Source: a virus. Taken from it: DNA of 64,000 nucleotides. Shown piece after piece: positions 4,402 through 63,811 of this stretch (the first letter of the stretch is position 1; the number at the start of each line of letters is the position of its first letter). The notes beneath the pieces were generated by a model. That model saw nothing but the letters and a program-made list of their open reading frames with translations, was not told the DNA's origin and did not search any database. The stretch lies in the IMG/VR virus record IMGVR_UViG_3300031999_000008, positions 1 through 64,000 of that record; one strand, 5' to 3'. The position numbers and the translations under genes are program-made.

Positions 4402-4953
4402 ATCGTTTACTAGTTCAGGTGTCACCGCTAACGGTAATTTGGGCTTGAGCTGGTACAGTGCCATACGGTTATTGATCAAGAAGCCGGGATAGGCACCAAT
4501 CAAAACTTCGGCAGGCGGCTGTACAGAGCGAATGGCCGACTTCTTCAGGCGTAGTTTACGCGCCACATTGAAGATAGGCATAAGCTCAATGATCCCTGTT
4601 TTGTTATTGAACATCACAATGCAGGGGTCGATGAGCAAAACTTCATCGTCGTCTTCTTTGACGTTGATACCCATGATAGGCCCATCAGTGGTCGAGTAAA
4701 CCTCGATAGCATGCCCTGCAGCACAAAAACCATTGTCCTTTACCAGGGCGAATTCCACGTAGCTACGTTTGTGCATCTCCCCTGTCTTAACCCAGTCAAC
4801 GACCAACTGACCGTTCACGGTACTCGCCTTTGACTCCCACGCGGGTTCGGTATCGGTAGCGACGCCATACCGAAACTCTATACCAAACTTTTCAAATGTT
4901 TTGGTCTCAAGCTGCCTCGAAAGCATCGTTTCGGAGTTCTGTGAGTAGCTCAT
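4393..4953 (-). CDS. Hypothetical protein, 186 aa
   Basis: This soluble mixed alpha/beta protein of unknown family has beta-rich middle segments (for example CIVMFNNKTGIIELMPIFNV). The start chosen is ATG 4953 (MSYSQNSET), lying inside the 3' end of the DNA polymerase gene with 47 nt overlap; an in-frame TTG at 4962 is closer to GGGAG and remains possible. It is the last gene of the minus-strand replication operon. No catalytic motif is visible. Coupling to the polymerase suggests, but does not show, a replication-linked role. Confidence 0.7.
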   Translation of the reverse strand: MSYSQNSETMLSRQLETKTFEKFGIEFRYGVATDTEPAWESKASTVNGQLVVDWVKTGEMHKRSYVEFALVKDNGFCAAGHAIEVYSTTDGPIMGINVKEDDDEVLLIDPCIVMFNNKTGIIELMPIFNVARKLRLKKSAIRSVQPPAEVLIGAYPGFLINNRMALYQLKPKLPLAVTPELVNDAS

Positions 4954-7900: not shown

Positions 7901-8005
7901 ACTGCCACACCGCTTACTAGGATGTCGGGGACAGCCATTGCAAATCTGGCCTTTATGCTCAAGGGATAAGCCCTCTTCTAGCCCCTGGTCAGGTTCTGTA
8001 GACAT
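4907..8005 (-). CDS. Family A DNA polymerase with N-terminal UDG-like domain, 1032 aa
   Basis: This is the replicative polymerase. Residues 1-190 resemble a family 4/5 uracil-DNA glycosylase, with four Cys placed like the 4Fe-4S ligands (C22, C25, C97, C116 in HHCRPYL); the catalytic GEAPG motif is degenerate (AEQPD). The 3'-5' exonuclease follows (DTET 247-250, NAKFD about 313-317), interrupted by a Lys/Glu/Pro-rich insertion before YGAVDGD. The polymerase domain has motif A DYKGAEVR, motif B RSNIKRVVFGILYG and motif C VHDS (usual form HDE). A UDG-like N-terminal domain is known in the SPO1 polymerase. ATG 8005 has AAGGA upstream and overlaps the primase-helicase stop. Confidence 0.95.
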   Translation of the reverse strand: MSTEPDQGLEEGLSLEHKGQICNGCPRHPSKRCGSSKIDAEVDVLFIAEQPDRASVDAGTPMAGHGGKVLTTALKAVIGSDKRYKELRYAFTYAVQCISETEDETAAPNKEVVHHCRPYLQGTIQRFNPKVIVAMGSTALRQLGVKQQYNDIRNKFTTHLGYNAPIYTTFSEKALLAAPGVFETFKLNLINIFDKVVNKGILALPLEEVSKDYLLPKTMDDALAACDVILNYGSATVPAAHWSISVDTETTTLYPEKEGARIIAFCFGWDAGKSATILYDHPHAGEEYLARLPELTAKIREILASTKPKILHNAKFDLKFIELKYGMPVNAVAWDTLLGEHLLDEDKKGNYGLKVLTANFLPQYCGYEDKLYDLLNDEESASKVDEAEKELEDLREIIATEHPGYLKSLEEYKEALVVYEADKQIFDVADKAYQFAYDDYLFCKSALAGKQAAWDVEVSDWPKGKRGKPKKPVKWFSKPEKPAAVKEPKKPEDPRSKKEQQISKDAGFENLPIHDLQIYGAVDGDVTRQLARLQRRRIAKEQSKVVPLMKSHAVPASRVLGRMEFGGMRVDIPYIDVLEEAFTNVIEKTEKELYEMTRDSAPPGKEINLNGAATLANVLYNWGWTHPNGKKMDAYEILAYTKKGQASTSEKILRQFVAYEDDKKQCPTETAYFIERLIKYRKASKARNTFLANIRALSKRDGFLHTQFHLNGTGTGRLSSSDMNMQNLPKFLAGWNLKKLFLPDDDSMVFVNMDYKGAEVRVFCAYARDPALIQALNDGMDMHSFFAAKVFKRPYEMYARRDDAVFIPDGALRKLLDQERSNIKRVVFGILYGAGPEKISETIGVSVDEAKVLIALLYQMFPEIALYATNVELEVARDHFVETFFGRRRRFPLAGISRHAGRAKRQGRNFKIQSTSSDIVIGQLIEMEEPLRCDLGGRMLLTVHDSIAFQLPKRHIGQLHDFVEHYAKKRVADKYAWMAVPFEADTEIGENYGECQSIAKYLAKHPLLIQPEGVIEENELLTELRNDAFEAA

Positions 8006-11000
8006 CAATCAATTCCTTGCAGAGGATCTCCCTCGTCGATAGTGAACGGCTGCTTAATTGGAATGACCTCAGCGACTTCAGATACCTTACCATTGCGATC
8101 GAACGCTTCGGAATCTGCAATAGCCTTCCGATGTTTATCGATGAGGTTGCCTACGGAAATCAGGCTATAAACGTCTGACGAGCTGGTCATGCCTGCGGCC
8201 ATCAGCCGTGTAATAATGCCTAGTTTTGTAGCTTCCGCTTTATCAATCAACCACTCACCCGCAGTCTCTGCTTCAGACTTCAACGAGAAGGGTGTCTTCG
8301 TTCGGTACTGCGCATTCTTGAGCAGTGTCTGTTTTACCTCAGACCACATAATGCCAATGCACTGGGACCGCTCATCATAGTATACGCCCACTTTACTGGC
8401 GCTGATTTTGTCCCGCTGATTCTGATCCAGAAGCATGGACTTGATGTTGGTAAATTGATTAGGCTCGTCTTTGGCCGGAATAGGCGCGTTCAGGACCGTA
8501 TCAATAATGTTGTGTCCAGCAGTGCTTCGATTACGCTCGTAAACCTGCTGCTTACGCGTCTCACGATAGTCCTCGATAAACTTCTTACCGTCAACGCCAA
8601 ACGCGTCTAGGACCGCTGCCATCGGCATTAGGTTTTCCGTGAAACGGTCGACGTTCTGAATATTGATTGCACCGTCGCCTGCTTGGCGCCGACCAAACTG
8701 GTTGTACAGGTCAGAGTAGCGTTGCTTAACGCGAGGTGCCAAATGAAGGGAGTGTAGCAACACACTCAGGCGCAATTTCTCTATTTCCTCAAGGGAAAAG
8801 GCATTGCGTAATTCTAGGCGGACGTTGTTGTGGTTTGGATTCTTCTTGAGATTGATCGTGTTAAAACGACTCTCATCCATGGCATCCACAATGGGCGTAC
8901 CGCTAGCGGTGATCACATTATTCTGTAGGTGATACGCCCGACTCTGTCCCTCTACAGTACCTTGGCTGAGCGTAGCCTTACCCGCGGTGGCTAACGTACG
9001 GCAGCGCTGGTAGAACGTCTTCTTGTTACGCGAATCAGGGGACCCGTCATCGGGATCGTTCATCTCATCGAGCGCCGATACCAACCGGGTATTCGTGAAT
9101 ATCTGGTAAAAACCCGCCTGTGTAAAGCTGTCCAACGCAAGCGCGTGATCACACAACGAGAACTCGCGTAGCTGCGTATGGTTCGCTGTCACGGACAATA
9201 GCGTGGTCTTACCCGATTCAAACTGCGCCTGGTAATGTGTGAGCATGCGACGTCCGGTAATAACGTCGTACAGATGATTGTAAAATACGAGACCGGCACA
9301 GTACAAAGAGTCGACTTCCTGATTTCGGAAACCGAAGCCTGTATTGATTAACTTGTGCACCATTGTGAAGGTCTGGTGTGCCGTGTACGGCGGCCGTTGG
9401 GTAATGTCCGCTGCGCACTTTATTTGGTTCGTCCAACCGTGCTCCATATCCTCAATGAGGTTACGGCGGTGGTCTAGGTCAAATACGATGCCGTTATCAC
9501 TAGGCCCCTCTAACTCAGTAACAGTAGAAAGACTTGATAAATCAGCGGTCCACTTAAGGCGATAAACACGATTGCCATTAACAATATACCCTGGTTTTCC
9601 GACATCTACATTCTCCAGGTGAATGCCCTGACCCTTGATGAAACCACCCGCGTAGTCAACGGCCTCAGCAGAGAGCATGCTGTACGCGCGCTGTACATCC
9701 TTCTCAATCATCTCTTCGGACTTGTCCAGCGCCGTCTGGGCTGACTCAGGGTCGTCCACGGAGGGGAAGTACGAGGGAAGGCCAATTTCATCCCGTGCCC
9801 AGTAATAAAGACTGCCGCGGGTGGTATACCGTTTGAACTGGGTAATGGCCGCTTTGTGGTCCACTTGAACAGGCAGATACTGCTTGCGTGTTTTATTCCA
9901 TAGCTTGAGAACGCCCTGGTCACAGTCCCAGGTAGTCACTTGGTAATTGCTTCTAATCCAATCCGCTATTTTCTCGACAAACCCAAGCGCGGTATCGTCT
10001 TGCAATTGCGTCTTACGGAGCAAGTCCGTTGCAGGGACGGACGGACACATCCTCGCAAATTCTTCTGCGAAAACCTGGCGCTCTGCGTCATTACGCAGGA
10101 TCGTACTGAACTCGGTACCTACCTCTTGTAGGCCAATAATATTGTCTTGGTGAATACCCTTGATACGCGTCTTCGCGCGTTCAATACACCAACGCGTTGC
10201 GAATATGTAATTCTTGGGCTCACAGACTTCTTTAAATACAACGTCGAATCCGTGTACCTTAATAGCCTCATCCGGGTCGATCTTGCCAGGTACAGGATTA
10301 CGTATACGCTGAGGCCATTTAAATACCTGAACCGCAACACGGCGAGTCTTAGGCAACACACTCGCGGGATAGCTATCTCCCGCGGCATCGTCATCGCCCA
10401 TAAGGCGACACTCGGTGAAACCGAGGTCGGCCATGAAGTCTACGCCGTTGTGACCTGCTCCGCCCAAGGCAATCACAACTTCGTCGACATCAGGGCAGTT
10501 GGTGAGCATGCCCTGCGTCAGTGCTAACGCGTCGTGTTCGCCTTCAACAGCGATAAAGCGTGTTACCTTCTCGCTTGCGTAGTGTTTATAGAACGAGGAA
10601 GTAAGTACTCCAAAAGCACCGAGTTCCCCGCCTTCCTTAGGCCGCACAAACCGTACAGACGCTTTATCCGGCCCGGGAATACGTAGCTTAAAGGCGGATA
10701 CCTCGTCTGGAGAAACAGCGTACGTGTACGTAACGCAGTTCATGTAAGTGACATTTAAATAGTCACCAACAAGTCGCATGCACCAAGTAATATCCTCTTC
10801 GTTACCGCCCAACTGCGCGCACAGCTTTTGTAGATCAGTGGATGTTGGGAGCATGCCCAACGACCCCAACATGTCTACCGACGTAATTCCGCGCTGCTTG
10901 AGCCACGTAACGGTGTTCGCCGCATTCTGCGGTACTTTGTCAGCGAGCCATACCTTACATAGGTACTGGTGAAAAACCTCGTTCAACATCTTCATGCGAT

Positions 11001-11373: not shown

Positions 11374-12142
11374 TCCGCCCCCGGACCGTGCAAATCGTTC
11401 GGAAATCACACCAATCGCAATGCTTCCCCACGGTTGCGTCAGGTGTGTCTGCCTTTACGGACTTTTTGTTCAAGTAGTCAATTAACCAGGGTTGCAACAC
11501 ATCTTTGATATAAGACGGTTTTACCGGATTAGACCATTCCAACTTACTGTGTGCTACGTAGTGTAGGGCGCACTGAACTCCTTTTAAATCCGGAAAGTGC
11601 GCCAACGCCATTACAGTATAAAAATGTAATTGCGTAGTGTAATACGTAGCGGGACGGACCCGGCCCGTCTTGTGGTCGATGATGATAACGTGTCCGCTCT
11701 CCAGAACCAAGCTCATATCGACGATGCCTCGAATGATTCCGCGCTCGTCCGCAAAATCACAGGCTTCGTAATCTTTAGTCACTGCCCACTTGTTTTCTAA
11801 CAACACATGCTTGACCGGATAATTCGACTTAAACACACGTATGCGTTCATCGAAGTCGATCAACGGCTGTGCGAAGGTCTTCACCTTCTCTTTGTCTTTG
11901 TGCGTTAGATCCGATTCAGACTCGGTAATCGCGGTACTAAGCGCCTCGGCGACGTGCACACCTTGTAGGACAAGTTCTTGCGCTCTATGTACAGTGACAC
12001 CCACAATAGCAGCAGATCCCTTGGGACCCGTTGCTACTTTGTCGATGTATCTGTACTTAAAAGCAAGAGCACACGTCGCAGCCAATGACGCCTTTGAAGG
12101 CGACCAAGGGCCATATTTAACAAGGGGCAAGTGCTTAGTCAT
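11330..12142 (-). CDS. PD-(D/E)XK exonuclease, Cas4/AddB-like with Fe-S cysteines, 270 aa
   Basis: This is a RecB-family nuclease. The core runs RGIVDMSLVLESGHVIIIDHKTGR, giving Asp, then D-x-K (IIDHKTG), followed by the QLHFYTVMAL helix with Gln typical of the family. One Cys lies near the N-terminus (ATCALAFKYRY) and three at the C-terminus (HCDWCDFRTIC), the spacing of a 4Fe-4S cluster in Cas4, AddB and Dna2. A role in DNA end resection or recombination is inferred. It is followed by the primase-helicase with overlap. The start has AGGT 6 nt upstream. Confidence 0.88.
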   Translation of the reverse strand: MTKHLPLVKYGPWSPSKASLAATCALAFKYRYIDKVATGPKGSAAIVGVTVHRAQELVLQGVHVAEALSTAITESESDLTHKDKEKVKTFAQPLIDFDERIRVFKSNYPVKHVLLENKWAVTKDYEACDFADERGIIRGIVDMSLVLESGHVIIIDHKTGRVRPATYYTTQLHFYTVMALAHFPDLKGVQCALHYVAHSKLEWSNPVKPSYIKDVLQPWLIDYLNKKSVKADTPDATVGKHCDWCDFRTICTVRGRNVKAGEERIEDSEA

Positions 12143-13142: not shown

Positions 13143-13826
13143 ATGCGCGCTAATACTTCTGCAGACTCGCTATCGCGTTACTACAAAGAAGTCGAGTCGA
13201 CGCGAATGCTAACCGCAGAGGTAGAGCGCGAGCTCATCCAACGGTACAAAGAAACGAAAGACCCCAAGGCCCGCGACCTGATTGTGCAAGGTGCACTCCG
13301 GTACGTAATAGCTGAAGCTCGCAAGCATCCTCGAAGTAGGATAGAGCGATCCATTCTCGAAGACCTCATCGCTGCGGGGAATATAGGGCTCATACGAGCG
13401 CTCACTAAATTCAAACCCGAGGCGGGTACCCGCTTTCTGACATACGCTAGCTGGTGGGTACGCCACGAGATGCGTGAAGAAGGTCGACGTCTCGGTTTAG
13501 TACATGTGCCGGCGCATGCCATTGCTAAAGGCTTGCGCACGCCGCACACCACCGAGTACGTCGAGAATATCGTCGGAGACGCAGATACCAACTTAGAAGG
13601 CTATGCAGTCGATATCGAAATGCAGCAAAGCCTTCTAAAATTGTTCCAACTAACAGACCTCTCTATACGGGAGGTCTTCATCATTAAAACGTCGTTCGGC
13701 ATCCACACAGCGCCTAAGACGTTAAAACAAATAGGACGCGTATTGGAGATTACAGGTGAACGCGTGCGTCAGCTACGGGAAACAGCCGTTACCAAACTAC
13801 GCTCGGCTGCCTCCCGTTTTGTCTGA
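13143..13826 (+). CDS. Sigma-70 family RNA polymerase sigma factor, 227 aa
   Basis: This protein directs RNA polymerase to promoters. Region 1.2-like sequence lies at residues 12-36, region 2 at 46-117 (LEDLIAAGNIGLIRALTKF, then FLTYASWWVRHEM, the -10 recognition helix), a region 3 start at VHVPAHA (about 121-126), and region 4.2 helix-turn-helix at 194-221 (LKQIGRVLEITGERVRQL). It is shorter than RpoD, with region 1.1 absent and region 3 much reduced. Since the phage also encodes beta/beta' proteins, this may be their specificity factor (inference); redirection of host polymerase is the alternative. It is the only plus-strand gene in the replication block and ends flush against the ParB-like gene. 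Confidence 0.93.
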   Translation: MRANTSADSLSRYYKEVESTRMLTAEVERELIQRYKETKDPKARDLIVQGALRYVIAEARKHPRSRIERSILEDLIAAGNIGLIRALTKFKPEAGTRFLTYASWWVRHEMREEGRRLGLVHVPAHAIAKGLRTPHTTEYVENIVGDADTNLEGYAVDIEMQQSLLKLFQLTDLSIREVFIIKTSFGIHTAPKTLKQIGRVLEITGERVRQLRETAVTKLRSAASRFV

Positions 13827-14840
13827 CTACGCCGTCTGCACAGCAGCGTCCGCTTTGCGAGGACGCCCGCGCTTCTTCTTCACAGGCTGGCCCTCAGAGT
13901 CCACCGCCGCAGTACGTGCCGCCTTAGGCTCGTCCTCATCGGTTTCCTCTGTAAGTACCTTGTTATCCTTCGAATGGTAATTTACGTCCGAATACTTTTC
14001 GTTGACCTTAAGGTCCGTCACGTTGGTTACGCCTGCGTCGCCTAACGCAATACGAATCCCCGCAGCGACGCCATTGTAAAACGTCTTTTCGTCCTTGCTG
14101 TTGAGCTTGGACTCGGCCTCAAAGGACACGTCACTGACGTACTGAACGAGGTTCTTCGCCGTAGGGCGTCCCTTGTTCGCGTACTTACGCCGCTTGCCCC
14201 CTTCGCTGGCAGCGTCCTTCAGCAACTTGCGAGCGTCCGCCCGCGTGTCGGCGTTCAATACTTGATCGACAAGCGCGTTCTGCTTGTCCTCTTCCACGTC
14301 AGCAATGTGTAGCGCCTGTTCCAGAGTAATATCTCCAGACTTGAGGGCCTGCTGCGCTTGGTGTGTCAGCTGAGTCGCCACCTTGTAGTGGTAGCTGACC
14401 CAAGACTGGTTGCGTCCTAGGCGTGCTGCAATATCGCGCTGTTCGAAGCCTGCGAGAACCAGACGCTTTACCTGCTGCGAGATTTCATACGTAGTCAGGC
14501 TCTTACGTTCAATATTCTCTTTGAGATTCCGAACACGCAGGTCATCGAGATTTCCCTCGTTCAATACGACGTCCAAGGAAGCATAGGCATCTTCGCCCAT
14601 TTCTTCTCGGATTTTCGTGATCGCATAGTATCGACGGAAACCGTAGACCAACAAATAGCGCGGGGATTCCGGTGTGCCAGCGTTCTGCTTCAGCGCCACA
14701 CCCACGGGTTGAAGTAGGCCGTCATCCATGATGCTCTGTTTGAGCTCATCGATTTCGGTGTACTCTTTACGGCAGTTAAAATCGAGATCCGCGATGATGG
14801 ACTCGAATGGAATAGATACCAATCGTTTCTTGGCTGGCAT
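13827..14840 (-). CDS. ParB-like DNA-binding protein with C-terminal AT-hook, 337 aa
   Basis: The N-terminal ParB/Spo0J-type domain (residues about 5-110) includes ELKQSIMDDGLLQPVGV and the arginine patch YGFRRYYA. A helix-turn-helix follows (EQRDIAARLGRNQSWVSYHYKVA). The tail has an AT-hook (KKKRGRPRK). Chromosomal ParB proteins bind parS and hydrolyse CTP; phage versions serve in plasmid-prophage partition or as transcription or nuclease factors. No ParA is seen, so partition is unsupported and a DNA-organising or regulatory role is as likely. RBS AGGGGAA precedes ATG 14840. Confidence 0.85.
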   Translation of the reverse strand: MPAKKRLVSIPFESIIADLDFNCRKEYTEIDELKQSIMDDGLLQPVGVALKQNAGTPESPRYLLVYGFRRYYAITKIREEMGEDAYASLDVVLNEGNLDDLRVRNLKENIERKSLTTYEISQQVKRLVLAGFEQRDIAARLGRNQSWVSYHYKVATQLTHQAQQALKSGDITLEQALHIADVEEDKQNALVDQVLNADTRADARKLLKDAASEGGKRRKYANKGRPTAKNLVQYVSDVSFEAESKLNSKDEKTFYNGVAAGIRIALGDAGVTNVTDLKVNEKYSDVNYHSKDNKVLTEETDEDEPKAARTAAVDSEGQPVKKKRGRPRKADAAVQTA

Positions 14841-15458: not shown

Positions 15459-15497
15459 TTCAATACTTTCTAGCTAACAAGAGGAGTACAATCTCTT

Positions 15498-15833
15498 TTA
15501 CCTTGTTTGCTTCGCGTTTTCGTTTCTAGCACGACGTACCGGTTCAGGAAACAGTTTTGAACGCGTCAGGTCGTGTAGTAACCGCGGAATACTTTTACTG
15601 CGCGTACCTATTACATTTTCTAGTACAACTATGTTGTCATTACAGACGACAACTAGATCAGGCAAGGGGCCTTCAAGCCCCAGTAAAAATGTACGTATTT
15701 TCTCAGCGTTACGTTGCTTTAAACGGGTCTCCGTGTGGTGCAACCGCGCTTCTTCCAAGGACATAAACTGTACGGTTTCACGTCCTGTACGATCGCACTG
15801 CACACGGACTTGCACACGAACGTCACTCGTCAT
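15498..15833 (-). CDS. Hypothetical protein, 111 aa
   Basis: The start ATG 15833 has GAGGAG eight bases upstream. The N-terminus is beta-like (VRVQVRVQCDRTGRETVQF), followed by a charged helix and a hydrophobic beta strand (DLVVVCNDNIVVLENV), ending in a basic Arg/Lys-rich tail. No family recognised. It overlaps the upstream gene by 11 nt. The basic tail fits nucleic acid contact, which is inference only. Confidence 0.6.
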   Translation of the reverse strand: MTSDVRVQVRVQCDRTGRETVQFMSLEEARLHHTETRLKQRNAEKIRTFLLGLEGPLPDLVVVCNDNIVVLENVIGTRSKSIPRLLHDLTRSKLFPEPVRRARNENAKQTR

Positions 15834-19501: not shown

Positions 19502-21232
19502 ATGTCTGAACCAGGAATCGCGGATCTAGCAGGCGGCGGGGCACGCGGCGGCGGTAGCCATCCCAACCCAATGTTCGATTTTATTACGGGCTTTGCCCCC
19601 CGTAAGCTCAAGGACCTATTTCGCTGGGTTGAGTACCTTTACTACAACTCAGCCCACATTTTCGCAGCGTTAAAGAAGTTCTCGGAATACCCGATTACGG
19701 AAGTCTCGATCAAGTCGAATGACGAGTCTTTAACACAAAATTGGGAACGCGTACTTAACAAATCGATCAAGATAAAGAACATAGCCATTGCTACGGGCCT
19801 GGACCTCCACCTGTATGGCAACTCGTTTATCTCGGTTTACCAGCCGTTCAACAGATTTCTAATCTGCACGAAATGCAACGCGCGTACGGGTGTCCGCAAG
19901 GTCAAGTACAAATTCAATCTCAAATCCCTGAGCTTCAACTATCACTGTCCAGGGTGTCACTCCGCTGTCTCTGGCAAAATGCATGACGAGAAGGCCGCGG
20001 ACGAAACTCGGATAAATATTATCCGTTGGGACCCGAAGTTAATCGACATCAACCACAACCCCATCACCGGGGAGTCTATCTACTACTACACGATCCCCCA
20101 AGACTTAAAGCACAAAGTCGAAAAGGGTGACGCGCACATCATCAACACGATGCCGATTGAGTTCCTGAAGGCTATCAAAGATAACAAGGTCTTTGAATTT
20201 GCTGAAGGCCAAGTCTATCACATGAAGATAGACCCCCCAGCGGGCATCTCGTCGCAATGGGGATTTCCGCCTCTTACAACCACTATCAAACTATTCTTCT
20301 ACACAGCAGTGTTGCGTAAGGCTAACGAAGCCATCGCGTTTGAACACATTGTACCGTTTAGAGTACTACATCCTGCACCCGTCAGCGGCGCTGCTGATCC
20401 CGCCCAGATGATAAATCTGATGAAATGGCGGCAGGAGCTCACCGCAAATATCAAGCGTTGGCGGCGAGATCCTTTGCACATCATGTTCGCCCCTGCGGCC
20501 CTTGGCGTAACCATGATGGGCGGCCAGGGTCGCTCATTACTGACCCTCGGCGAGATTAAAGAAGCCGAAGAGGAAATCATCGCAGCTATGGGAATTCCGC
20601 GAGAATTCTTGTATGGCGGACTTTCCTTTAGCGGCTCGTCTATTACGCTGCGTATGCTTGAAAATCAGCTTGAAACGTATACGTCGCACCTCAACGAACA
20701 ACTGAATTGGATTATCAAGCAGACTTCGAAGATCCTCGGTTGGAAAACGGCAGAAGCTGAGTATCTGCCGTTCAAGCTCGTCGATGATACGGTGCAAAAG
20801 CAAATGGAACTGCAGTTGCAACAAATAACAGGGAACATGATTTCCAATACGTCGTTGCTCGAAGTTAGTGACCGGGACATCAACGAAGAACGTGAGAAGC
20901 GTAAGCAAGAAGCGCTTGACGAAGCGCGTATGCAACAAGATTTGCAACTGCAAATTCAGAAGATGCAGACATCAATTACGTCGCAAGCCCAGCAAGAATC
21001 TGCAAACGGGCAGGGATTGTCATATAACCCTACGGCTGTAATCGCCCAAGCGGAACAATTAGTACAGCAAATCAGCCAATCCGACCCCGCTACGCAGAAA
21101 TCCATGCTGTCGCAGCTATCCCAAGAAGACCCCGTCATGTATGCTGTCGTGAAAGACCGTTGGCAAACAATGCAAACGGTACAGAAACAACAAGCAACAG
21201 CCACAATGGCTAATGGGGCCGCACCGCAATGA
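19502..21232 (+). CDS. Portal protein with zinc-ribbon insertion, 576 aa
   Basis: This is the dodecameric head vertex channel for DNA. The evidence is the general portal layout: an N-terminal helical wing (FRWVEYLYYNSAHIFAALK), a beta-rich stem region, and the conserved late segment with GIPREFLYGGLSFSGSS followed by a long helix and a Gln-rich C-terminal crown. Residues 122-152 carry C122-x2-C125 and C149-x2-C152, a zinc ribbon inserted near the wing, unusual for a portal. The start has GAGGATG upstream. It is coupled (ATGA) to the next gene. The portal is far from the capsid genes (43050), as in several large phages. Confidence 0.88.
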   Translation: MSEPGIADLAGGGARGGGSHPNPMFDFITGFAPRKLKDLFRWVEYLYYNSAHIFAALKKFSEYPITEVSIKSNDESLTQNWERVLNKSIKIKNIAIATGLDLHLYGNSFISVYQPFNRFLICTKCNARTGVRKVKYKFNLKSLSFNYHCPGCHSAVSGKMHDEKAADETRINIIRWDPKLIDINHNPITGESIYYYTIPQDLKHKVEKGDAHIINTMPIEFLKAIKDNKVFEFAEGQVYHMKIDPPAGISSQWGFPPLTTTIKLFFYTAVLRKANEAIAFEHIVPFRVLHPAPVSGAADPAQMINLMKWRQELTANIKRWRRDPLHIMFAPAALGVTMMGGQGRSLLTLGEIKEAEEEIIAAMGIPREFLYGGLSFSGSSITLRMLENQLETYTSHLNEQLNWIIKQTSKILGWKTAEAEYLPFKLVDDTVQKQMELQLQQITGNMISNTSLLEVSDRDINEEREKRKQEALDEARMQQDLQLQIQKMQTSITSQAQQESANGQGLSYNPTAVIAQAEQLVQQISQSDPATQKSMLSQLSQEDPVMYAVVKDRWQTMQTVQKQQATATMANGAAPQ

Positions 21233-21816: not shown

Positions 21817-22569
21817 TCAGCTCTCTCCTGCTGGAGACAGTGTTTGTGCCACCAGCTGCTGTATTTTCTCAATGTCCGTGTGTTTCACGGCAGGGTTTGA
21901 AATAGAGCGCTTAGGGTGGGGCGGCTGACTGGATCGTTGTGGGGGTCGGTTAGACGGCCTCGAAGCCTGATCCTGTTGGAAACAGTGTTGGCAGAATTTC
22001 CGACTCCCATGTACCCATTGAAGCCCCCGGTACAATACGGGTGCGACCTCGCTCAACACGACGGTCTGCACTTTGGGACATCGGGTACACCCGAATGTCT
22101 CAACAATAATGTTTTCCCAACCACGGGGATTTTTCTTACGAAGAAAATCCACCGTTTCCTGCGTAGGATCACGCAGCCACACGCCGATTTCGGTGACCCG
22201 AAAGCACGTGCAGAACTCTTCCATGTGCACAGGCAATTCCCGTACACACAACGAACAGTAGGCGCGCGTTTCACGCCCTACATCCAGCCCCCAGATGATC
22301 CGGTAAAACTGCGCCAGCTCACATAGCTGCGTTACCGTAAAGTCTCGTCCCCCTTTGTGACAGTTCACTTGGGCCTGTTCGTAGGCCCCCCGACTTACTT
22401 CTTTGACGATCATCATCGCCATGCGCTGATCAACCCCCGCAAACAGCTCCGCCAAGAGCAGTGCTTGCTGATTCAGCTTTACTAGCGCCTCGTAGCTAGC
22501 AGTTTCCAATCCGTCCTCCTCTTTCAAGTAAGCAGGCACCATAAAGGTGTCTACATATACTTTTACCAC
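21817..22569 (-). CDS. Cys-rich zinc-binding protein, 250 aa
   Basis: Several Cys pairs suggest two or more zinc sites: CSLC with CTC (residues about 105-123), CTRC (about 161) and CQHC (about 197). The C-terminus is Pro/Ser/Arg-rich and probably disordered. The only start is GTG 22569, without a clear Shine-Dalgarno; ATG 22542 is an alternative. It is divergent from the RNA polymerase gene with 45 bp between, so it could share its control region. A nucleic acid or RNA polymerase binding role is possible but unproven. Confidence 0.65.
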   Translation of the reverse strand: MVKVYVDTFMVPAYLKEEDGLETASYEALVKLNQQALLLAELFAGVDQRMAMMIVKEVSRGAYEQAQVNCHKGGRDFTVTQLCELAQFYRIIWGLDVGRETRAYCSLCVRELPVHMEEFCTCFRVTEIGVWLRDPTQETVDFLRKKNPRGWENIIVETFGCTRCPKVQTVVLSEVAPVLYRGLQWVHGSRKFCQHCFQQDQASRPSNRPPQRSSQPPHPKRSISNPAVKHTDIEKIQQLVAQTLSPAGES

Positions 22570-22575
22570 TAACAG

Positions 22576-22605
22576 TTGCTGTATTAGGAGCGGACCGCGT
22601 ATACT
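22576..22605 (+). promoter_or_regulatory. Candidate promoter for RNA polymerase operon
   Basis: TTGCTG, an 18-bp spacer and TATACT lie just before ATG 22615. Transcription from it would start at about 22612, giving an almost leaderless message, so either that is real or the true promoter is further upstream. Confidence 0.4.
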
Positions 22606-22614
22606 AGGGCAGCT

Positions 22615-25600
22615 ATGCCGCCCAAATTACAGCCTTTATTAGCCGATGCCGACGAACGCCGTGAGCAGATTCGTCAGAAGACAATGGCAGGTCTCAACGC
22701 ATTGTTTCCTCTTGTAGGGAAAAACTCGACGGTCGAGATAAAGGATATTGGCATATCCAAAAAAGATTACTCTCAGGCAGAGCAAAAAGAAGCGCTGATG
22801 AGCGGGCGTACGCTACACGAAGCCATCCAAGGCACCATGGTTCTACGCGATAACCGTACGGGTAAAGTGTTAGACCAGCAAAAGCGAACGCTATTACACC
22901 TACCGTATTTTACTAAGCGTTACACGTTTATCGTTGGCGGTATTGAGTATGATATCCCGAGTCAGTTGCGCCTCAAGCCGGGTGTGTATACCCGCGAACG
23001 CAACAACGGTGAATACGAAGCAGCCTTCAATTTGAGCAAAGGTTCGAACTTTCGTCTCTCGATGGAACCGGAGTCAGGCCGGATTCATATGGAGTTAGGC
23101 GCTTCAAAGATCCCGTTATACTCGTTATTACGCTCACTCGGCGTGCCTGATACGGAAATCAAATCGTACTGGGGTACGGAGCTCAAGGACGTAAACGCCG
23201 CCTCGTCTAAGGACAAAGAAGAGATCATACTCAATAAAATACTGCTGAAAATTAAACGTCCCCGCGATGTACTGCCTACGACCTTAGAAGGTAAGCGCGA
23301 GTTCGTACATAATTACTTCGATAATACCGCGATGGATCCTGAGGTCAATGCGCGCACCCTCGGCAAGCCATTAGCGAAGGCCAACGCTACCGCTCTGCTT
23401 ACCGCTTCCAAGAAGCTCATAGACGTACAGAAAGGGTTGGCTGACGAAGACGACCGCGATAGTCTTGAATTCAAGACGATACATTCCGCGGATGACTTCT
23501 TTAAAGAGCGTTTGGATATCGATGCAAAGCGCACGATTGCCAAAAAGCTCACCATGCGTCTCAATCAGGCTAAAGAAAATGACCTGAAAACAATCATACC
23601 TAATTCAGTGTTTACCAAATCTATCAATTCATTCTTGACTAGTGCCGCTATTTCTTCGAGTCCTACCCAAATCAACCCCATGGAGATTATTGACCATGCG
23701 GGTAAAATAACGTCACTCGGCGAAGGCGGCATTACTAACGACCGCGCTGTGCCTTACGAATCGCGTAAGGTCCATAATACCCACTTTGGTATCCTCGATC
23801 CTGTACGTACCGCAGACGGTGCCAACGCGGGTATTGTGATCCACAGCAGTTTGTCAGGGCACCGCGACGCGGCTGGCAATATGTACGCGTATATGAAAGA
23901 TATGCGTACAGATAAAATGACGCACGTGCCCGTCATGACTTTAGCCAAAAGTGTTGTTGGGTTTTCTAACCAAGAACACCGTACGCACTGGGACGCGATT
24001 AAAGGCTCGGAAACGGTATCCGTACCGAAAAAAGATGTCGATTACATGATGCCGGATTCCATGTACATGCTGGGTCCCGCAACGTCATTGGTTCCCTTTC
24101 TAAATGGCATGCAGGGAAACCGCGCCATTATGGGATCTAAATTCCAGACACAGGCGCTGCCCTTAATCGAACGCGAAGCGCCGTACGTGCAAGCGATGGG
24201 CCCCTATAAGGGGGTCAGCATGGAAAAAGAATTAGCCATGCTAGTATTGCCCACATCCCCCGTACATGGGACCGTGGACCACATTGACGAACACTATATA
24301 CATATTCGTCCCGACAAAGAGAAGACCGCAGCGGCAGGTCCTACGCTTATCAAAGTGCCTTACAGCACGTATTTTCCATTAGCGTCTAAAACGTACCTAC
24401 ATGATGATCTCAACGTCAAAGCCGGCGACAAGGTAAAGAAAGACCAGACGCTAGCAGACTCGAATTTTACGAAGCACGGAGCGCTAGCGCTAGGTAAGAA
24501 CCTGTCCGTCGCGTACATGGCTTATTACGGCAAGAATTCTAACGACGCTGTTGTAATTAGCGAAGACGCGTCGAAAAAGCTGATCTCAGAACACATGTAT
24601 AAGGAATCTTTGCAAAAAGGCCCCGACGTAGTCTTGGGCAAAGCCAAATACGTTGCGTATTTCGGTGTCCAATACACTGAAGAACAGTTAAACAAACTGG
24701 ACGACGCGGGCGTAGCTAAGAAAGACGCGCACCTCAATAAAGGTGACCCTGTGATCCTGGGACTGCGTAAAGCCGCGCCTACGCCTGAGTCTGCGCTGTT
24801 AGGCAATTTTCATAAGTCGTTGGTGAGGCCGTACCGCGACGTAACCGTAACGTGGGACCATGATTCCCCCGGCGTGGTTCAGGACGTAGCCAATGTGGCA
24901 CGTCAGGTCATGGTCACCGTACGTACGCAAGAAGTAATGAAAGTGGGCGATAAACTCGCTAATCGGTTTGGTGGTAAAGGTGTTGTCTCCGAGATCGTCC
25001 CCAACGAACGCATGGTTAAGGACGAGAGCGGTAAGCCTATCGACGTACTATTTACTTCCGCGGGCATCGTTAGCCGTATTAACCCCAACCAAGTCGTGGA
25101 AGCCGCTCTCGGTAAAGTCGTTGAGAAGACGGGTAAGCCTATCGTCGTACCCCAGTTTAACCCTGAAGATAACGTTAAATACGCAAAGAGACTGCTTAAA
25201 GAACACGGTATTAAAGACAAAGAAACTGTGTACGACCCCGTTTCCGGCAAGCACATTCCCAACATATTCGTTGGGCGCTCATTTATACACAAGCTATTCA
25301 AGTCCACAGAGACTAACTATTCCGCACGCGGTGTGTCCGCCTATGACATCAATCTCCAGCCTACCAAAGGCGGGGATGAGGGTGCCAAAGGTCTCGGGCG
25401 TATGGAAATAAACGCACTTCTTGCGCATAATGCACGTAACGTTCTGAAAGAATCACTCACTCTAAAAAGCGAGAAAAGCGATGACTTCTGGCGTGCGTAC
25501 GAATTTGGCTTGCCGGCTCCGCCGCCTAAGACGCCATTTGTTTCTGAAAAATTCATGGCGATGCTTAAAGGGGCGGGGATAAATATACAGAAAGAAGGCC

Positions 25601-27009
25601 CGCACGTCACACTCGGGCCCATGACGGATAAGACTGTGAAAGAACTCTCTTCCGGCGCTTTAAGTGTTCCGAGTCTAGAGAAGTCCAAATCGTTCATGGT
25701 TAACGCCAAGAATATGAGCCCCGAAGACGGAGGGCTATTCGATCCTGCTCTAACCGGCGGCATGGGTGGCACGAAGTGGTCTCATATGGCGCTTAGTGAA
25801 CCTATCGTGAATCCTATTTTTGAGGATTCGGTGCGGCGTCTGTTGAGCATGTCGAAGAAACAACTGCGCGAAGAAATTGGTAAAGTAGGCGGAGGCGGGA
25901 TCAAGTCCCAGTTAAATAAACTGGACCTGACAAAGCTAGCCCAAGACTTGCGAGAACAGACCAAGTCTAAGCGGGGGTCTGATCTAGATAACGCAGTAAA
26001 AAAGCTCAAATATGTAGAAGCGTTAAAGGCCGGTGGTTTCTCGAAAGCTGGTGACGCATACACCTTGAGCAACTTAGCGGTAGTGCCTCCTGTGATGCGT
26101 CCTATTCTGCCGTCGAATAAGGGCAACGAGTTGCAGATATCCGATATCAATTATCTATATCGAGATGTCGGGCTTGCGAGCTCAGCACTCGCTAACAGTA
26201 AAGAAACTGAAGTGCCTTCGCTTATGCAAGAAGCCAGGCACCATTTGCATGACACGGTAGGCGCCCTATTCGGGGTACAAAAACCGACGAGTCCGCAGCT
26301 CTTGGGGCGTGAGGCAAAAGGCTTCATTGAACAGATCACAGGATCTGGCTCACCCAAAAGCGGTTTCTTGCACAAGAAAATTCTCAAGAGACAACAAGAC
26401 TTATCCGGTCGCGCTACAGCGACGCCTGACGCCACTCTCAACATCGACCAAATCGGTGTGCCAGAGGACATGCTCTGGACTACTTACTCTAAATTCATAA
26501 TGCGTGGGCTTATCAACCAAGGCTACAAACCGCTAGACGCACGGGAGATGATTGAAAATCGGCACGTAGCTGCACAGAACATTCTCAACAGAGAAATTAC
26601 ACAACGGCCCATGTTCGTGAACCGTGCACCGTCCCTCCACAAGCACAATGTGGTCGCAGCGTACCCTGTGTCTGTTCCGGGTAAGTCTCTCCGCGTCAAT
26701 CCGTTTATGGAAACCGGCATGAACCTGGATTACGACGGGGACGCTATGCAGCTCTACGTGCCCGTGTCGGAACCGGCTGTTGAAGAAGCGCGCAACCTGA
26801 CGCTCTCCAACCTGTTGTTCAGTGACAAGAATCCTAACGATCTCATGGTCTTTCCGCAGCACGAGGCCATTCTAGGTACTTACCTTGCGACGCACCACAA
26901 AGATGCCGGCCCTGTGCGTAAGTACAAAACAAAGAAAGAAGCGATGGCCGCTTACCATAGTGGGGAGATCACTATGAATACTCCTGTCGAAATACTAGAA
27001 TCGGCCTAG
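22615..27009 (+). CDS. RNA polymerase beta fused to N-terminal half of beta', 1464 aa
   Basis: A catalytic core chain of a multisubunit RNA polymerase. Residues 1 to about 1000 follow bacterial beta in order: FIVGGIEYDIPSQL (fork/lobe), SLGEGGITNDRAVPYESR with HNTHFGILDP, VGDKLANRFGGKGVVSEI (about 777) and the C-terminal GLGRMEINALLAHNARNVL. Beta' then begins: PEDGGLFDPALTGG (about 1035), VVPPVMRPILP (about 1152), FVNRAPSLHKHNVVA and the Mg-binding N-L-D-Y-D-G-D at 1370-1376. The beta' zinc finger 1 (four Cys in bacteria) is absent. The protein stops shortly after EAMAAYHSGEI, before the bridge helix, which is in the gene at 28032. ATG 22615 has AGGG upstream. Confidence 0.95.
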   Translation: MPPKLQPLLADADERREQIRQKTMAGLNALFPLVGKNSTVEIKDIGISKKDYSQAEQKEALMSGRTLHEAIQGTMVLRDNRTGKVLDQQKRTLLHLPYFTKRYTFIVGGIEYDIPSQLRLKPGVYTRERNNGEYEAAFNLSKGSNFRLSMEPESGRIHMELGASKIPLYSLLRSLGVPDTEIKSYWGTELKDVNAASSKDKEEIILNKILLKIKRPRDVLPTTLEGKREFVHNYFDNTAMDPEVNARTLGKPLAKANATALLTASKKLIDVQKGLADEDDRDSLEFKTIHSADDFFKERLDIDAKRTIAKKLTMRLNQAKENDLKTIIPNSVFTKSINSFLTSAAISSSPTQINPMEIIDHAGKITSLGEGGITNDRAVPYESRKVHNTHFGILDPVRTADGANAGIVIHSSLSGHRDAAGNMYAYMKDMRTDKMTHVPVMTLAKSVVGFSNQEHRTHWDAIKGSETVSVPKKDVDYMMPDSMYMLGPATSLVPFLNGMQGNRAIMGSKFQTQALPLIEREAPYVQAMGPYKGVSMEKELAMLVLPTSPVHGTVDHIDEHYIHIRPDKEKTAAAGPTLIKVPYSTYFPLASKTYLHDDLNVKAGDKVKKDQTLADSNFTKHGALALGKNLSVAYMAYYGKNSNDAVVISEDASKKLISEHMYKESLQKGPDVVLGKAKYVAYFGVQYTEEQLNKLDDAGVAKKDAHLNKGDPVILGLRKAAPTPESALLGNFHKSLVRPYRDVTVTWDHDSPGVVQDVANVARQVMVTVRTQEVMKVGDKLANRFGGKGVVSEIVPNERMVKDESGKPIDVLFTSAGIVSRINPNQVVEAALGKVVEKTGKPIVVPQFNPEDNVKYAKRLLKEHGIKDKETVYDPVSGKHIPNIFVGRSFIHKLFKSTETNYSARGVSAYDINLQPTKGGDEGAKGLGRMEINALLAHNARNVLKESLTLKSEKSDDFWRAYEFGLPAPPPKTPFVSEKFMAMLKGAGINIQKEGPHVTLGPMTDKTVKELSSGALSVPSLEKSKSFMVNAKNMSPEDGGLFDPALTGGMGGTKWSHMALSEPIVNPIFEDSVRRLLSMSKKQLREEIGKVGGGGIKSQLNKLDLTKLAQDLREQTKSKRGSDLDNAVKKLKYVEALKAGGFSKAGDAYTLSNLAVVPPVMRPILPSNKGNELQISDINYLYRDVGLASSALANSKETEVPSLMQEARHHLHDTVGALFGVQKPTSPQLLGREAKGFIEQITGSGSPKSGFLHKKILKRQQDLSGRATATPDATLNIDQIGVPEDMLWTTYSKFIMRGLINQGYKPLDAREMIENRHVAAQNILNREITQRPMFVNRAPSLHKHNVVAAYPVSVPGKSLRVNPFMETGMNLDYDGDAMQLYVPVSEPAVEEARNLTLSNLLFSDKNPNDLMVFPQHEAILGTYLATHHKDAGPVRKYKTKKEAMAAYHSGEITMNTPVEILESA

Positions 27010-27803: not shown

Positions 27804-28032
27804 CCATGGCCGTAGAGCGCTACTCATGAAGCTAGGGCTCGACGCCGAAGCGTTCACCCAAATGGTTCAACAAGACGATACTGCTGACTTCGTAAATCAA
27901 AATACGACGTCTAAAGACATGAACCAGAATCTGGATAAAGCGCCTGCATGGGGTAGCCAGAGCTCCATGGAAGCTGGCGACGCAGGCACTCGCAATTACC
28001 AGATGGGTCTTCCTCGCGCAGGCGCGGTGTAG
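27790..28032 (+). CDS. Small protein with Y-x-H-G...K-L-G N-terminus, 80 aa
   Basis: It starts MRLYNHGRRALLMKLGL, a tag also seen at 45557 (YTHGCHVALTKLGM) and 55133 (YTHGRRHAQIKLGV). The rest is polar, Gln/Asn-rich and probably disordered. It overlaps the lipoprotein gene by 14 nt and its stop shares one base with the GTG start of the beta' C-terminal gene, so the five genes form one coupled operon. Probably a virion protein by analogy with its tag-sharers (inference). Confidence 0.65.
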   Translation: MRLYNHGRRALLMKLGLDAEAFTQMVQQDDTADFVNQNTTSKDMNQNLDKAPAWGSQSSMEAGDAGTRNYQMGLPRAGAV

Positions 28033-29843
28033 TGTCTAAAACGCTGGGTCAGTATTTGTTGGATGGGGCGATACCCGTTGGGTACCGCCCTAAAGACGTA
28101 TATTCTAAGTCCGATCTACGTAGCAATATGCTGCGATTAGCTAAGGATGATCCAGCGCGTTACACAAAAACAATTACAGAAGTAAAGCGTTTAGGCGATG
28201 AATTCGCCACTAATTTAGGTATATCAGTAGGCCTTGATGATATCGAGCCCTTGTATAAAACACGCGACGCCATTACCAAGCCCGCGTTGGCTCGCGTTAA
28301 AAAAGCCAAGACCAAAACAGAGCGGCAAGACATTATCTCGGAAACTCAGGATAAACTCCTAGAGTACGCCATGAAGCACCCAGGAACCATGGGTGAAATG
28401 GCACGGTCCGGCGCACGGGGTAGCTCGCTCCAACTCATGCGTGCCGTAGGCGCACCCGCCGCAAGTAGCGACGAAAAAGATGATCTACAAGGTTGGCTGA
28501 CAACGCACAGTTATGCGGAAGGCCTTCGTCCTTCAGAGTGGTGGGCCAATAACCGTGAAGCCCGAATGGCTGCGGTAAAGACTCAGAATGAGGTCATGGA
28601 GCCCGGCGATTTATCTAAGATTTTGATCAACAATACCAGTGATCAAATCGTGACTATATCGGATTGTGGCACCAAAAACGGCCTACTTATAGCGCTTACG
28701 GATTCACATATTCTAGATCGCTTTACGGCACGCACCGAACACGGACTGCCTCGCAATACGCTCATGACTCCCCGGGTTGTAAGCACGCTACAGCAGCAAA
28801 AAGTCGAACGCATGTTGATGCGGTCACCTATGACTTGCGAAGCGCAGCACGGCATCTGCCAACATTGTGCAGGTTTGAGTACGCTCGGCGTCATTAACAA
28901 GATCGGTGAAAATTTAGGCATTCGTGCAAGCCAGTCGTTAGGGGAACCCCTTACGCAACTCGCGCTGAATGCTAAACACGGCGTCCGTCTTTCAGGTGCT
29001 AACCCGCTAGAAACCACCGGGCTAGAGGGCTTTCGCAAGCTGCTAGAATCCCCTGCGTCCTTCAAGAATAAAGCGACGCTCGCTCCTGAAGACGGCGTCG
29101 TTACCGCGATTTCAAAAGCACCTCAGGGTGGCTATTACGTCACGGTCAACGAAAGTAAGACGTACGTGTCCCAGGGGTTAAAACCTACTGTCTCTATAGG
29201 CACGACCGTCCATGCTGGCGACGTTCTATCTGAGGGGACGCCGCGCCCCGATGAGGTTGTGCATTACAAAGGCCTCGGCGCAGGCCGTGCCTACCTCGTG
29301 AATAAGCTCGGCGGCATCTACAAAGATAGCAAAATAAACGTAGATCGTCGGCATTTTGAAGTACTCGCGAAGTCTACGCTCAACCACGTACGTATTGAGG
29401 ACGTGGACGATGCTGACTCTGCGGCACATGGTCTCGTACGTGGTGATGTAATCGACTACAACCGTTATCGTAATATCGTGGGCGACAAGACACAGCACAC
29501 GGATATAGATAACGCTGAAGGTAAGTACCTCGGTGAGGGTGTATTGCACCATTTGGCAGGTACGCAGATTACGCAGCCAATGCTAGCTGAAATAAAAGAT
29601 GCCGGATTTACTAAGGTACGCACGGCTAGCCAGGCGCCTGTTGTGTCTGCGGTCATCGCGCCTGCGACGCGTAATCCTCTGTTGAATCCCGACTGGCTTG
29701 TTCGGATGGGACATCGTTATTTGAAGCAGTCCCTTTTAGAGGGAGCCCAAAAGGGACAAACTTCTAACATTCACGGCACGAGTCCGGTCCCCGGTCTCGT
29801 ATTCAGCGGGGAATTCGGTGAGGGTGAAAATGGCCAATACTAA
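28032..29843 (+). CDS. RNA polymerase beta' C-terminal half, 603 aa
   Basis: It completes the beta' chain. The first residues (KTLGQYLLDGAIPVGY) align with the bacterial segment just after the N-terminal half ends. The bridge helix is GARGSSLQLMRAVG (about 137-150), the trigger loop region THSYAEGLRPSEWWANNREA (about 157-176) and QNEVMEPGDLSKIL. The second zinc site is complete: SDCGTKNG plus TCEAQHGICQHC. The signature NLGIRASQSLGEPLTQLALN matches bacterial AAQSIGEPGTQL. The start is GTG 28032 (TAGTG), coupled to the upstream stop, with no good SD. Together with the 1464-aa chain it supplies all active-centre elements. Confidence 0.95.
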   Translation: MSKTLGQYLLDGAIPVGYRPKDVYSKSDLRSNMLRLAKDDPARYTKTITEVKRLGDEFATNLGISVGLDDIEPLYKTRDAITKPALARVKKAKTKTERQDIISETQDKLLEYAMKHPGTMGEMARSGARGSSLQLMRAVGAPAASSDEKDDLQGWLTTHSYAEGLRPSEWWANNREARMAAVKTQNEVMEPGDLSKILINNTSDQIVTISDCGTKNGLLIALTDSHILDRFTARTEHGLPRNTLMTPRVVSTLQQQKVERMLMRSPMTCEAQHGICQHCAGLSTLGVINKIGENLGIRASQSLGEPLTQLALNAKHGVRLSGANPLETTGLEGFRKLLESPASFKNKATLAPEDGVVTAISKAPQGGYYVTVNESKTYVSQGLKPTVSIGTTVHAGDVLSEGTPRPDEVVHYKGLGAGRAYLVNKLGGIYKDSKINVDRRHFEVLAKSTLNHVRIEDVDDADSAAHGLVRGDVIDYNRYRNIVGDKTQHTDIDNAEGKYLGEGVLHHLAGTQITQPMLAEIKDAGFTKVRTASQAPVVSAVIAPATRNPLLNPDWLVRMGHRYLKQSLLEGAQKGQTSNIHGTSPVPGLVFSGEFGEGENGQY

Positions 29844-30252: not shown

Positions 30253-30281
30253 TTGGGCTAGACAATCAACCAGCCTATGAT
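30253..30281 (+). promoter_or_regulatory. Sigma-70-like promoter in repeat copy 1
   Basis: TTGGGC, 17-bp spacer, TATGAT. It is conserved with the second copy at 31092, including the spacer sequence. Confidence 0.6.
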
Positions 30282-30346
30282 TAACGTGCGGCCTCTAGAG
30301 ACGCAGAGAGCTACCATGTCGAATTCACCGTTTTTTAAGCGAGCCC
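30253..30346 (+). repeat. Direct repeat copy 1 (promoter plus start of next gene)
   Basis: About 94 bp, roughly 90% identical to 31092-31185. It includes the promoter, the leader and the first 10 codons of the copy-2 gene (MSNSPFFKRA versus MSNSPLFKRA). In copy 1 the GAGGAG SD is changed to GAGACG and the real downstream gene begins at 30391, so this copy looks like a duplicated expression cassette fused upstream of another gene. Confidence 0.85.
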
Positions 30347-30390
30347 TGTGCTCGGTCTATTCTTCAGCAGTGAATTCGGAGAGGGGACCG

Positions 30391-31091: not shown

Positions 31092-31120
31092 TTGGACTAG
31101 ACAATCAACCAGCCTATGAT
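31092..31120 (+). promoter_or_regulatory. Sigma-70-like promoter in repeat copy 2
   Basis: TTGGAC, 17-bp spacer, TATGAT, 35 bp before the start codon at 31155. Conservation with copy 1 supports function. Confidence 0.65.
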
Positions 31121-31185
31121 TAACGCGATGCCTCTAGAGGAGCAGAGATCTACCATGTCGAATTCACCGCTTTTTAAGCGAGCCT
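31092..31185 (+). repeat. Direct repeat copy 2 (promoter plus start of gene)
   Basis: The intact copy of the 94-bp cassette: promoter, XbaI-like TCTAGAG leader, GAGGAG Shine-Dalgarno and the first codons of the 422-aa protein. See copy 1 at 30253. Confidence 0.85.
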
Positions 31186-40863: not shown

Positions 40864-40892
40864 TTGTATTATCAAAGACTACCCCCTAAGAT
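40864..40892 (+). promoter_or_regulatory. Sigma-70-like promoter before head-core genes
   Basis: TTGTAT, 17-bp spacer, TAAGAT, followed by TAACGACG as in the repeat promoters (TATGATTAACG). It lies in the 59-bp gap between the protease gene and the gene at 40920. Confidence 0.65.
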
Positions 40893-43049: not shown

Positions 43050-43976
43050 ATGTCTAACGCATATCGCACAGAGACTGAGAAGGTCTCGGCCCAGTTCATC
43101 AACTCTAACTTTGTTCGCAAGCTCGAACAGGGTCGGGTTAAGGAAGCCACCGAAGAAGGTTCGGCTTTCATTCGCACCAAGATGCGCCAAGAGGCGTTCG
43201 TGCGCGAAATTCTTCCCCCGGTTCTTCTTGCGGACGATGAGATCGACCGTGATGAGAACACGGACCAGCCGAAGAAAATCGTCGAGAAGGAGCCCGACTC
43301 CATCGCGACGTTCGTGCCCTTCTACGGCACTGGCGTTCGTACGCTCTTCCGCGGCCCGCGTTACGCTGTGCACTTCGGTAAGACCGAGTCGCAACGCTTC
43401 CGCAAGAGCAAGTTCGAGCTCATGACCTACCAGAACGATATCCGTAAGATTCTTTCGGATAACTCTGTGAAGGACATGGCTGACCAAGAGGACAGCAAGT
43501 TCATCAACACGATCAACTCGATCCTCACGAGCAACCCGACGCAGGTCACGACTGCGGCTTCGTTCAATGCGGCTGCCTTCAAGGGCATGTTCCAGAACTT
43601 GGTCAGCCGTCGCATCCCGATCGGCAAGGTCCTGATGACCAAGTACACGTACTACGAGGCGCTTGACCTCCCCGCGACCGACGTTGGTAACGACGTGGCC
43701 TCGGCTCACTACCGTGATGGTATTGAGAAGGAAGAGCGTCTTTGGGGTCTGCCTGTCGTGACCACCATCAAGACAGACATCCTTACGGCGCAGGCCGGTG
43801 CGACCCACTCGGTCTGGACCTTCGGTCCCGAGAACTACCTGGGTAACTTCTTCCTGCTGCAGGACGCGACCCTGTTCATCAAGCAGGAAGCGGACATGAT
43901 CTTCTTCCACAGCTATGCTGCTCCGGGCATCGGCATCGGTAACACCGCGTCGATCACTCGCTGCGACATCGCGTGA
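43050..43976 (+). CDS. Major capsid protein, 308 aa
   Basis: Identified by position (after protease, scaffold and decoration genes) and by sequence character: an N-terminal helix (EKVSAQFINSNFVRKLEQG), an extended E-loop-like segment, the helix DMADQEDSKFINTINSILTS, and a beta-rich P-domain-like end (GLPVVTTIKTDIL ... VWTFGPENYLGNFFLL), consistent with the HK97 fold. No obvious propeptide is visible. Codons are strongly biased to C-ending forms compared with neighbours, as expected for a highly expressed gene. GGAG lies 10 nt before the ATG. Confidence 0.85.
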   Translation: MSNAYRTETEKVSAQFINSNFVRKLEQGRVKEATEEGSAFIRTKMRQEAFVREILPPVLLADDEIDRDENTDQPKKIVEKEPDSIATFVPFYGTGVRTLFRGPRYAVHFGKTESQRFRKSKFELMTYQNDIRKILSDNSVKDMADQEDSKFINTINSILTSNPTQVTTAASFNAAAFKGMFQNLVSRRIPIGKVLMTKYTYYEALDLPATDVGNDVASAHYRDGIEKEERLWGLPVVTTIKTDILTAQAGATHSVWTFGPENYLGNFFLLQDATLFIKQEADMIFFHSYAAPGIGIGNTASITRCDIA

Positions 43977-50713: not shown

Positions 50714-50742
50714 TTGTAGGAGAATCCTAGATTCCCTATAAT
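50714..50742 (+). promoter_or_regulatory. Sigma-70-like promoter of sheath gene
   Basis: TTGTAG, 17-bp spacer, consensus TATAAT, with a 45-nt leader to ATG 50788 and GGAG before it. The best promoter in the window, fitting a highly expressed structural gene. Confidence 0.75.
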
Positions 50743-61282: not shown

Positions 61283-61325
61283 AGCCGTTCAAATACACTA
61301 AAATAGCCACAGCTAGGAGACTCTG

Positions 61326-63751: not shown

Positions 63752-63811
63752 TTCACAACTGAAAAGCAGACGCTTTGCTGCTATACTCTTATACCGAATT
63801 TTTGTTTCTTT

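Follow-up and report, generated by a model that had tools for sequence, protein, structure and literature searches.

A sigma70-family protein and a multisubunit RNA polymerase encoded together in an Arash-like phage lineage with two promoter motif classes

Results

A compact sigma factor is encoded upstream of a phage RNA polymerase

The DNA analysed here (the window) is 64 kb out of a 90,903-bp IMG/VR virus contig, and its features are collected in Table 1. A preliminary description had placed a sigma-70 protein at the first locus listed, and the gene, named sigma-A here, is real. Its product scored above the curated Pfam cut-offs for Sigma70_r2 (E = 4e-11) and Sigma70_r4 (E = 6e-8) and also matched the PHROG sigma family (8e-28); among the PDB matches listed, those in sequence and in fold were sigma factors throughout. 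The predicted structure is of low confidence (pLDDT 57.5) and was used solely for its match to sigma folds. The best sequence matches were RpoS and SigA, not ECF sigmas, and regions 2.1–2.4 are still close to these two proteins. Region 1.2 was weak (14.8 bits versus a Pfam cut-off of 22), and region 3 was not detected between regions 2 and 4, where a linker of ~45 residues stands instead. Sigma-A has the region 2 and the region 4 helix-turn-helix of the sigma70 family and lacks the region 3 of full-length group 1–3 proteins. Its architecture would suit an ECF (group 4) sigma, but its sequence is nearest RpoS/SigA. The protein had been called canonical, with intact regions 2 and 4.2; regions 2 and 4 are indeed present, but region 3 is missing and some contact residues differ, both in region 2.2 and in region 4.2.

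In a comparison with relatives, no conserved early or late motif was found in the DNA upstream of the sigma-A gene. A minus-strand ParB/KorB-like gene (13827–14840) abuts its 3' end convergently. On the same strand, a single ORF at 4907–8008 combines an N-terminal uracil-DNA-glycosylase-superfamily domain with a family A DNA polymerase.

The RNA polymerase genes start 8.8 kb from the sigma gene, confirming the earlier figure of ~9 kb, and sit inside the head-gene cluster, between the portal and major capsid genes. Beta' is split in two genes and beta is fused to N-terminal beta', unlike the AR9/phiKZ pairs for both. An alpha subunit gene was searched for and none was found.

Table 1 Features of the window.
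Feature	Position	Strand	Remarks
Sigma-A (compact sigma70-family protein)	13143..13826	+	227 aa; Pfam, PHROG, PDB matches
Early-class element GGTAAAAG	15495..15502	-	Motif match
Portal protein	19502..21232	+	34% identity to Arash gp204, annotated portal
Early-class element GGTAAAAG, upstream of divergent gene 21817–22509	22560..22567	-	Same site in G001, G003, G004, G006, G007
Promoter-like TTGCTG-N18-TATACT, just upstream of polymerase gene	22576..22605	+	TTGYGN-N18-TATAMT in G001–G004, G006, G007
RNA polymerase, beta fused to N-terminal beta'	22615..27009	+	Catalytic loop NLDYDGDAM; flap tip and clamp helices; orthologue Arash gp206
RNA polymerase, C-terminal beta'	28032..29843	+	Rpb1 domain 5, 1e-17; orthologue Arash gp216
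Putative late promoter TTGGGC-N17-TATGAT	30253..30281	+	Duplicate of 31092 site
Putative late promoter TTGGAC-N17-TATGAT	31092..31120	+	Footprinted in G001, G003, G004, G006, G007
Putative late promoter TTGTAT-N17-TAAGAT	40864..40892	+	Footprinted in G001–G005, G007
Major capsid protein	43050..43976	+	41% identity to Arash gp226, annotated major capsid protein
Putative late promoter TTGTAG-N17-TATAAT	50714..50742	+	Footprinted in G001, G002, G003
Probable late -10 CTAAAAT without TTG, upstream of 61326	61298..61304	+	Also in G001, G003
Early-class element GGTATAAG	63788..63795	-	Motif match

Sigma-A and the polymerase are linked across an Arash-like lineage

Orthologues of sigma-A were identified in Salmonella phage Arash (OQ632216; gp196) and Vibrio phage D181 (OZ196140; D181_0244), where the sigma gene lies 9–10 kb upstream of a polymerase 33–35% identical to that of the window. 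Both phages resemble the window in this placement (~10 kb upstream), in the beta–beta'N fusion with a separate beta'C, and in a similar order of terminase, portal, capsid and tail genes. They differ from it in that their proteins are 23–43% identical and their sigma-A combines a longer linker with decay of region 4.2. D181 differs further: its sigma-A is on the other strand, and a homing endonuclease gene (locus 145616–146565) breaks up its polymerase gene, which runs on in two ORFs.

Scans of IMG/VR gave nearer relatives, with polymerases mostly 67–79% identical, and more distant near-complete genomes of 172–194 kb. Sigma-A and the polymerase were both present in 15/15 other genomes or contigs spanning both loci (G001–G007, G010–G015, Arash and D181). 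The window contig is therefore probably about half of a 180–190-kb phage. It is Arash-like, with syntenic terminase, portal, polymerase and capsid genes and sigma-A near the polymerase. A deeper-branch polymerase, 33% identical, was seen in L101 (6193–10710); its catalytic loop reads ADFDGD and its flap tip is shorter.

A second sigma family is present in the long genomes

Arash and D181 also encode a separate sigma family, sigma-V (Arash gp10 and D181_0011). In sigma-V, region 3 is recognised by Pfam (9e-9) and region 2 is divergent; the sigma-V profile matched only sigma factors in the PDB, and its predicted structure (pLDDT 72) matched sigma structures. It was found in 11/11 long genomes (Arash, D181, G001, G005, G007 and G010–G015). 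A search of the 90.9-kb window contig for a second sigma found none. Because G001, G005 and G007 place sigma-V 34–39 kb upstream of sigma-A, that of the window phage would be expected beyond the contig's left end. D181, a phage with its own polymerase and two sigmas, has in addition a gene annotated as an Srd anti-sigma factor (23371–23985).

Mass spectrometry of Arash virion preparations detected beta gp206 most, with 3516 spectra (PMC10585845, Table 2), along with beta' gp216 (1210 spectra) and sigma gp10 (467 spectra, full coverage); the sigma-A orthologue gp196 is missing from the virion protein list (PMC10585845). The authors name early transcription or carry-over as explanations (PMC10585845). 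Carry-over in these preparations is real, because the particle list includes many non-structural proteins (PMC10585845), and the presence of polymerase and gp10 may partly reflect it. By analogy with Arash, the window polymerase is probably a virion enzyme that works first with the other sigma.

Putative late promoters precede virion genes

Four boxes of the form TTGnnn-N17-TAnnAT had been described at 30253, 31092, 40864 and 50714, and all are present exactly as claimed. Across the whole window the pattern had only six plus-strand matches. In two cases the first downstream ATG (30277 and 31116) shares bases with the -10 box; translation more likely begins at 30316 and 31155. With uncorrected starts, 2/6 matches were intergenic (binomial P = 0.036); with corrected starts, 4/6 lay in upstream non-coding DNA, for which the same arithmetic gives ~1e-4. 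The description of at least four intergenic promoters holds insofar as all four boxes are non-coding after this correction, but only three are independent, since the 30253 site repeats the one at 31092 within a short duplication, and the pair is scored as a single event. The duplicated segments (30253–30400 and 31092–31240) comprise promoter and gene start, both ORFs reading MIN..PLE.QR.TMSNSP.FKRA, and the relatives are single-copy.

In refined form the motif reads TTGnnn-N16-CTAnnAT and stands mostly 24–47 bp before a start codon. At 31092, 40864 and 50714 the spacers have diverged in relatives while the boxes are footprinted, and a spacing series of the boxes had its maximum at 17 bp. Searches for this stricter motif gave 4 sites in the window genome versus 0.10 expected from shuffled upstream regions, 4 versus 0.27 in G001 and 2 versus 0.09 in G007; G005, G014 and D181 showed no clear excess over shuffled upstream regions. 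The -10 element CTAnnAT by itself exceeded expectation on the late strand of the window genome (6 vs 2.4), G001 (12 vs 3.6), Arash (8 vs 3.0) and G010 (9 vs 3.9), and it was not enriched on the opposite strand of these four. Late sites are few per genome. The second half of their -35 is GGC, TAT, TAC, TAG or GGG, not ACA, and a C before the -10 is common to them. The three independent boxes recur before orthologous virion genes in relatives, and the boxes appear to behave as late promoters, in agreement with the earlier proposal. Two Arash matches to the late motif (137608 and 139384) were dropped as support, for each coincides in part with an opposite-strand early element.

A second motif class precedes early-strand genes

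A second promoter class, GGTAWAAG, which the preliminary description had missed, precedes early-strand genes. An unbiased expectation-maximization (EM) search of G001 returned TGGTAWAAG before other-strand genes, with a log-likelihood of 240.6 versus 116.0 for shuffled sequence; the same search of the window genome by itself gave no clear motif, and the longer relatives were needed. Counted in co-oriented upstream regions versus shuffled means, GGTAWAAG occurred 6 times in the window genome (vs 0.44), 15 in G001 (1.0), 8 in G005 (0.7), 25 in G010 (0.9), 9 in G014 (0.6) and 20 in Arash (0.7). D181 had few (3 vs 1.2 expected), and its three sites are near-identical. Nearly all sites belong to the minus strand, the early one. 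A longer form of the motif, GGTATAAGnAAnnTGTA, is seen in Arash and G010, where a weak element also stands ~17 bp upstream of TATAAG. The motif resembles an extended -10. Host sigma70 needs T at -7; in the early sites this position is G throughout (by search pattern and extended context), and host sigma70 is an unlikely reader of the class.

Two arrangements of these elements recur. In Arash the only plus-strand early element (11588–11595) stands directly before gp9–gp10, gp10 being the virion sigma, and the element at 96469 in G010 is placed in the same way. In divergent regions of Arash (137.6 and 139.4 kb) and G010 (42.5 and 44.4 kb), a minus-strand GGTATAAG overlaps a plus-strand CTAAAAT head to head, in a fixed arrangement.

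Interface residues favour the phage core and fit the late -35

Two docking elements are conserved in the phage core, the clamp coiled coil of beta' and the flap tip of beta, on which sigma2 and sigma4, respectively, dock in bacteria. In the window branch the clamp helix has changed from bacterial LYRRVINRNNRLKRLL to LYRDVGLASSALANSK, with loss of basic residues. Region 2.2 of sigma-A reads LIAAGN, where E. coli sigma70 has its core-binding residues Q406 and E407; RpoS, SigA and four sigmas of other phages, the six sequences of the comparison set, keep Q/E at the Q406 position. Because the losses in sigma-A and in the phage clamp are complementary, they favour the phage core as partner, as judged with this small control set of six sequences.

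Region 4.2 in the window branch reads TGERVRQLRE. Of the sigma70 positions that contact the -35, E585, R588 and Q589 have their equivalents here, while R584 is replaced by G. Such a region fits a -35 conserved as TTG only. In the window branch, TTG stood 16–18 bp from CTAnnAT in 20/38 sites. The count in Arash and G010 was 4/17, and three of these four coincide in part with opposite-strand early elements. TTG thus accompanies an intact region 4.2; where region 4.2 has decayed, as in the Arash branch, the -10 is kept and TTG is mostly absent.

Discussion

The preliminary description had left two courses for sigma-A, to direct the phage core or to redirect the host enzyme. Linkage, docking elements and paired interface losses favour the phage core. 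The genes, their linkage, the two motif classes and the conserved docking sites were observed in these genomes, and polymerase and sigma-V are on published record from Arash virion preparations (PMC10585845); which core each sigma binds, which promoters it reads and when is inferred, and here we lean towards the following mechanism. A virion-carried core with sigma-V, of the Arash gp10 type, would first read the GGTAWAAG promoters on the opposite strand. Sigma-A would be made during infection as a specificity subunit, bind the core (beta–beta'N plus beta'C) and direct it to the TTGnnn-N16-CTAnnAT promoters before virion genes. Region 2 would dock on the beta' clamp helices and read and melt the -10, and region 4 would dock on the beta flap tip and read the -35, as in a bacterial sigma.

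The most credible alternative, though still an unlikely one, is that sigma-A redirects the host core to late promoters, as T4 gp55 and the SPO1 sigmas do, with the phage polymerase acting only early, with sigma-V. Most known phage sigmas act on the host core (general knowledge; PMC7824862), sigma-A keeps its closeness to RpoS and SigA in region 2, and the polymerase, but not sigma-A, is reported from Arash virions. Against this stand the strict linkage of sigma-A with the phage polymerase and the Q406/E407 pair, lost in step with the phage clamp, unlike in the six host-type sigmas.

It is improbable that the roles are swapped, with sigma-A reading early GGTAWAAG and sigma-V the late sites, or shared, with both serving both. 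Gp10 is packaged late and is therefore present when late genes are on; however, an intact helix for reading the -35 occurs only in sigma-A, and the presence of TTG follows that helix. Moreover, bacterial region 3 reads extended -10 elements, sigma-V has a region 3, and the early motif is similar in form to such an element. Still more improbable is that ordinary host sigma70 promoters account for the late boxes, to which their TTG and TAnnAT at 17 bp and their small number per genome would be suited, and that sigma-A does something else, for instance competes with host sigma70 or takes its place, given a -35 second half other than ACA, the shared C before the -10 and, at early sites, G where sigma70 needs T (general knowledge).

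A complete sigma-controlled system in this lineage is a fair possibility, and we offer it tentatively: one multisubunit core, a packaged early sigma reading lineage-specific extended -10 promoters and a switch by a second sigma to late promoters. At the head-to-head overlaps in some divergent regions, early and late firing would then be mutually exclusive.

Several known systems share parts of this arrangement. The N4 and P23-45 virion RNA polymerases are likewise carried in the virion for the first genes; they are single-polypeptide or tail-tape-fused enzymes and work without sigma factors (general knowledge; PMC10770324 for P23-45). The non-virion and virion polymerases of AR9/phiKZ resemble those of the lineage in having beta and beta' homologues only, no alpha and a separate specificity subunit; the likeness of a virion-carried enzyme extends to the window polymerase by analogy with Arash. 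Neither AR9 gp226 nor phiKZ gp68 is similar to sigma in sequence, and the promoters used have no conserved -35 (PMC9209446), unlike the two recognisable sigma70 specificity factors and two-box promoters of the window lineage. The mReC group (multisubunit-RNAP-encoding Caudovirales, PMC7481178) is similar in that it consists of tailed phages from metagenomes whose beta and beta' can be aligned; the paper makes no mention of sigma or promoters (PMC7481178). T4 gp55, SPO1 gp28 and other phage sigmas are also sigma70-related late specificity factors reading phage promoters, but the phages that encode them have no multisubunit polymerase of their own (general knowledge; PMC7824862 for jumbo phages).

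Two converse routes are described in reviews of jumbo phages (PMC7824862, PMC7598289): some have their own multisubunit polymerase and no recognisable sigma, others have sigmas that act on the host core. Jumbo phages bearing sigmas are mostly without polymerases (PMC7824862). The earlier statement that phages with multisubunit polymerases usually lack a recognisable sigma agrees with these sources. The literature searched gave no description of polymerase and sigmas combined beyond the Arash annotation and proteome. The present lineage of large phages has its own polymerase plus two sigmas, and its genomes show two corresponding motif classes, which suggests that it runs its own sigma-controlled transcription and does not only borrow the host's. 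A small viral core in which no alpha was found may use ordinary sigma factors. With Arash as a cultured member, sigma–core co-evolution and sigma switching as a viral early–late programme become directly testable.
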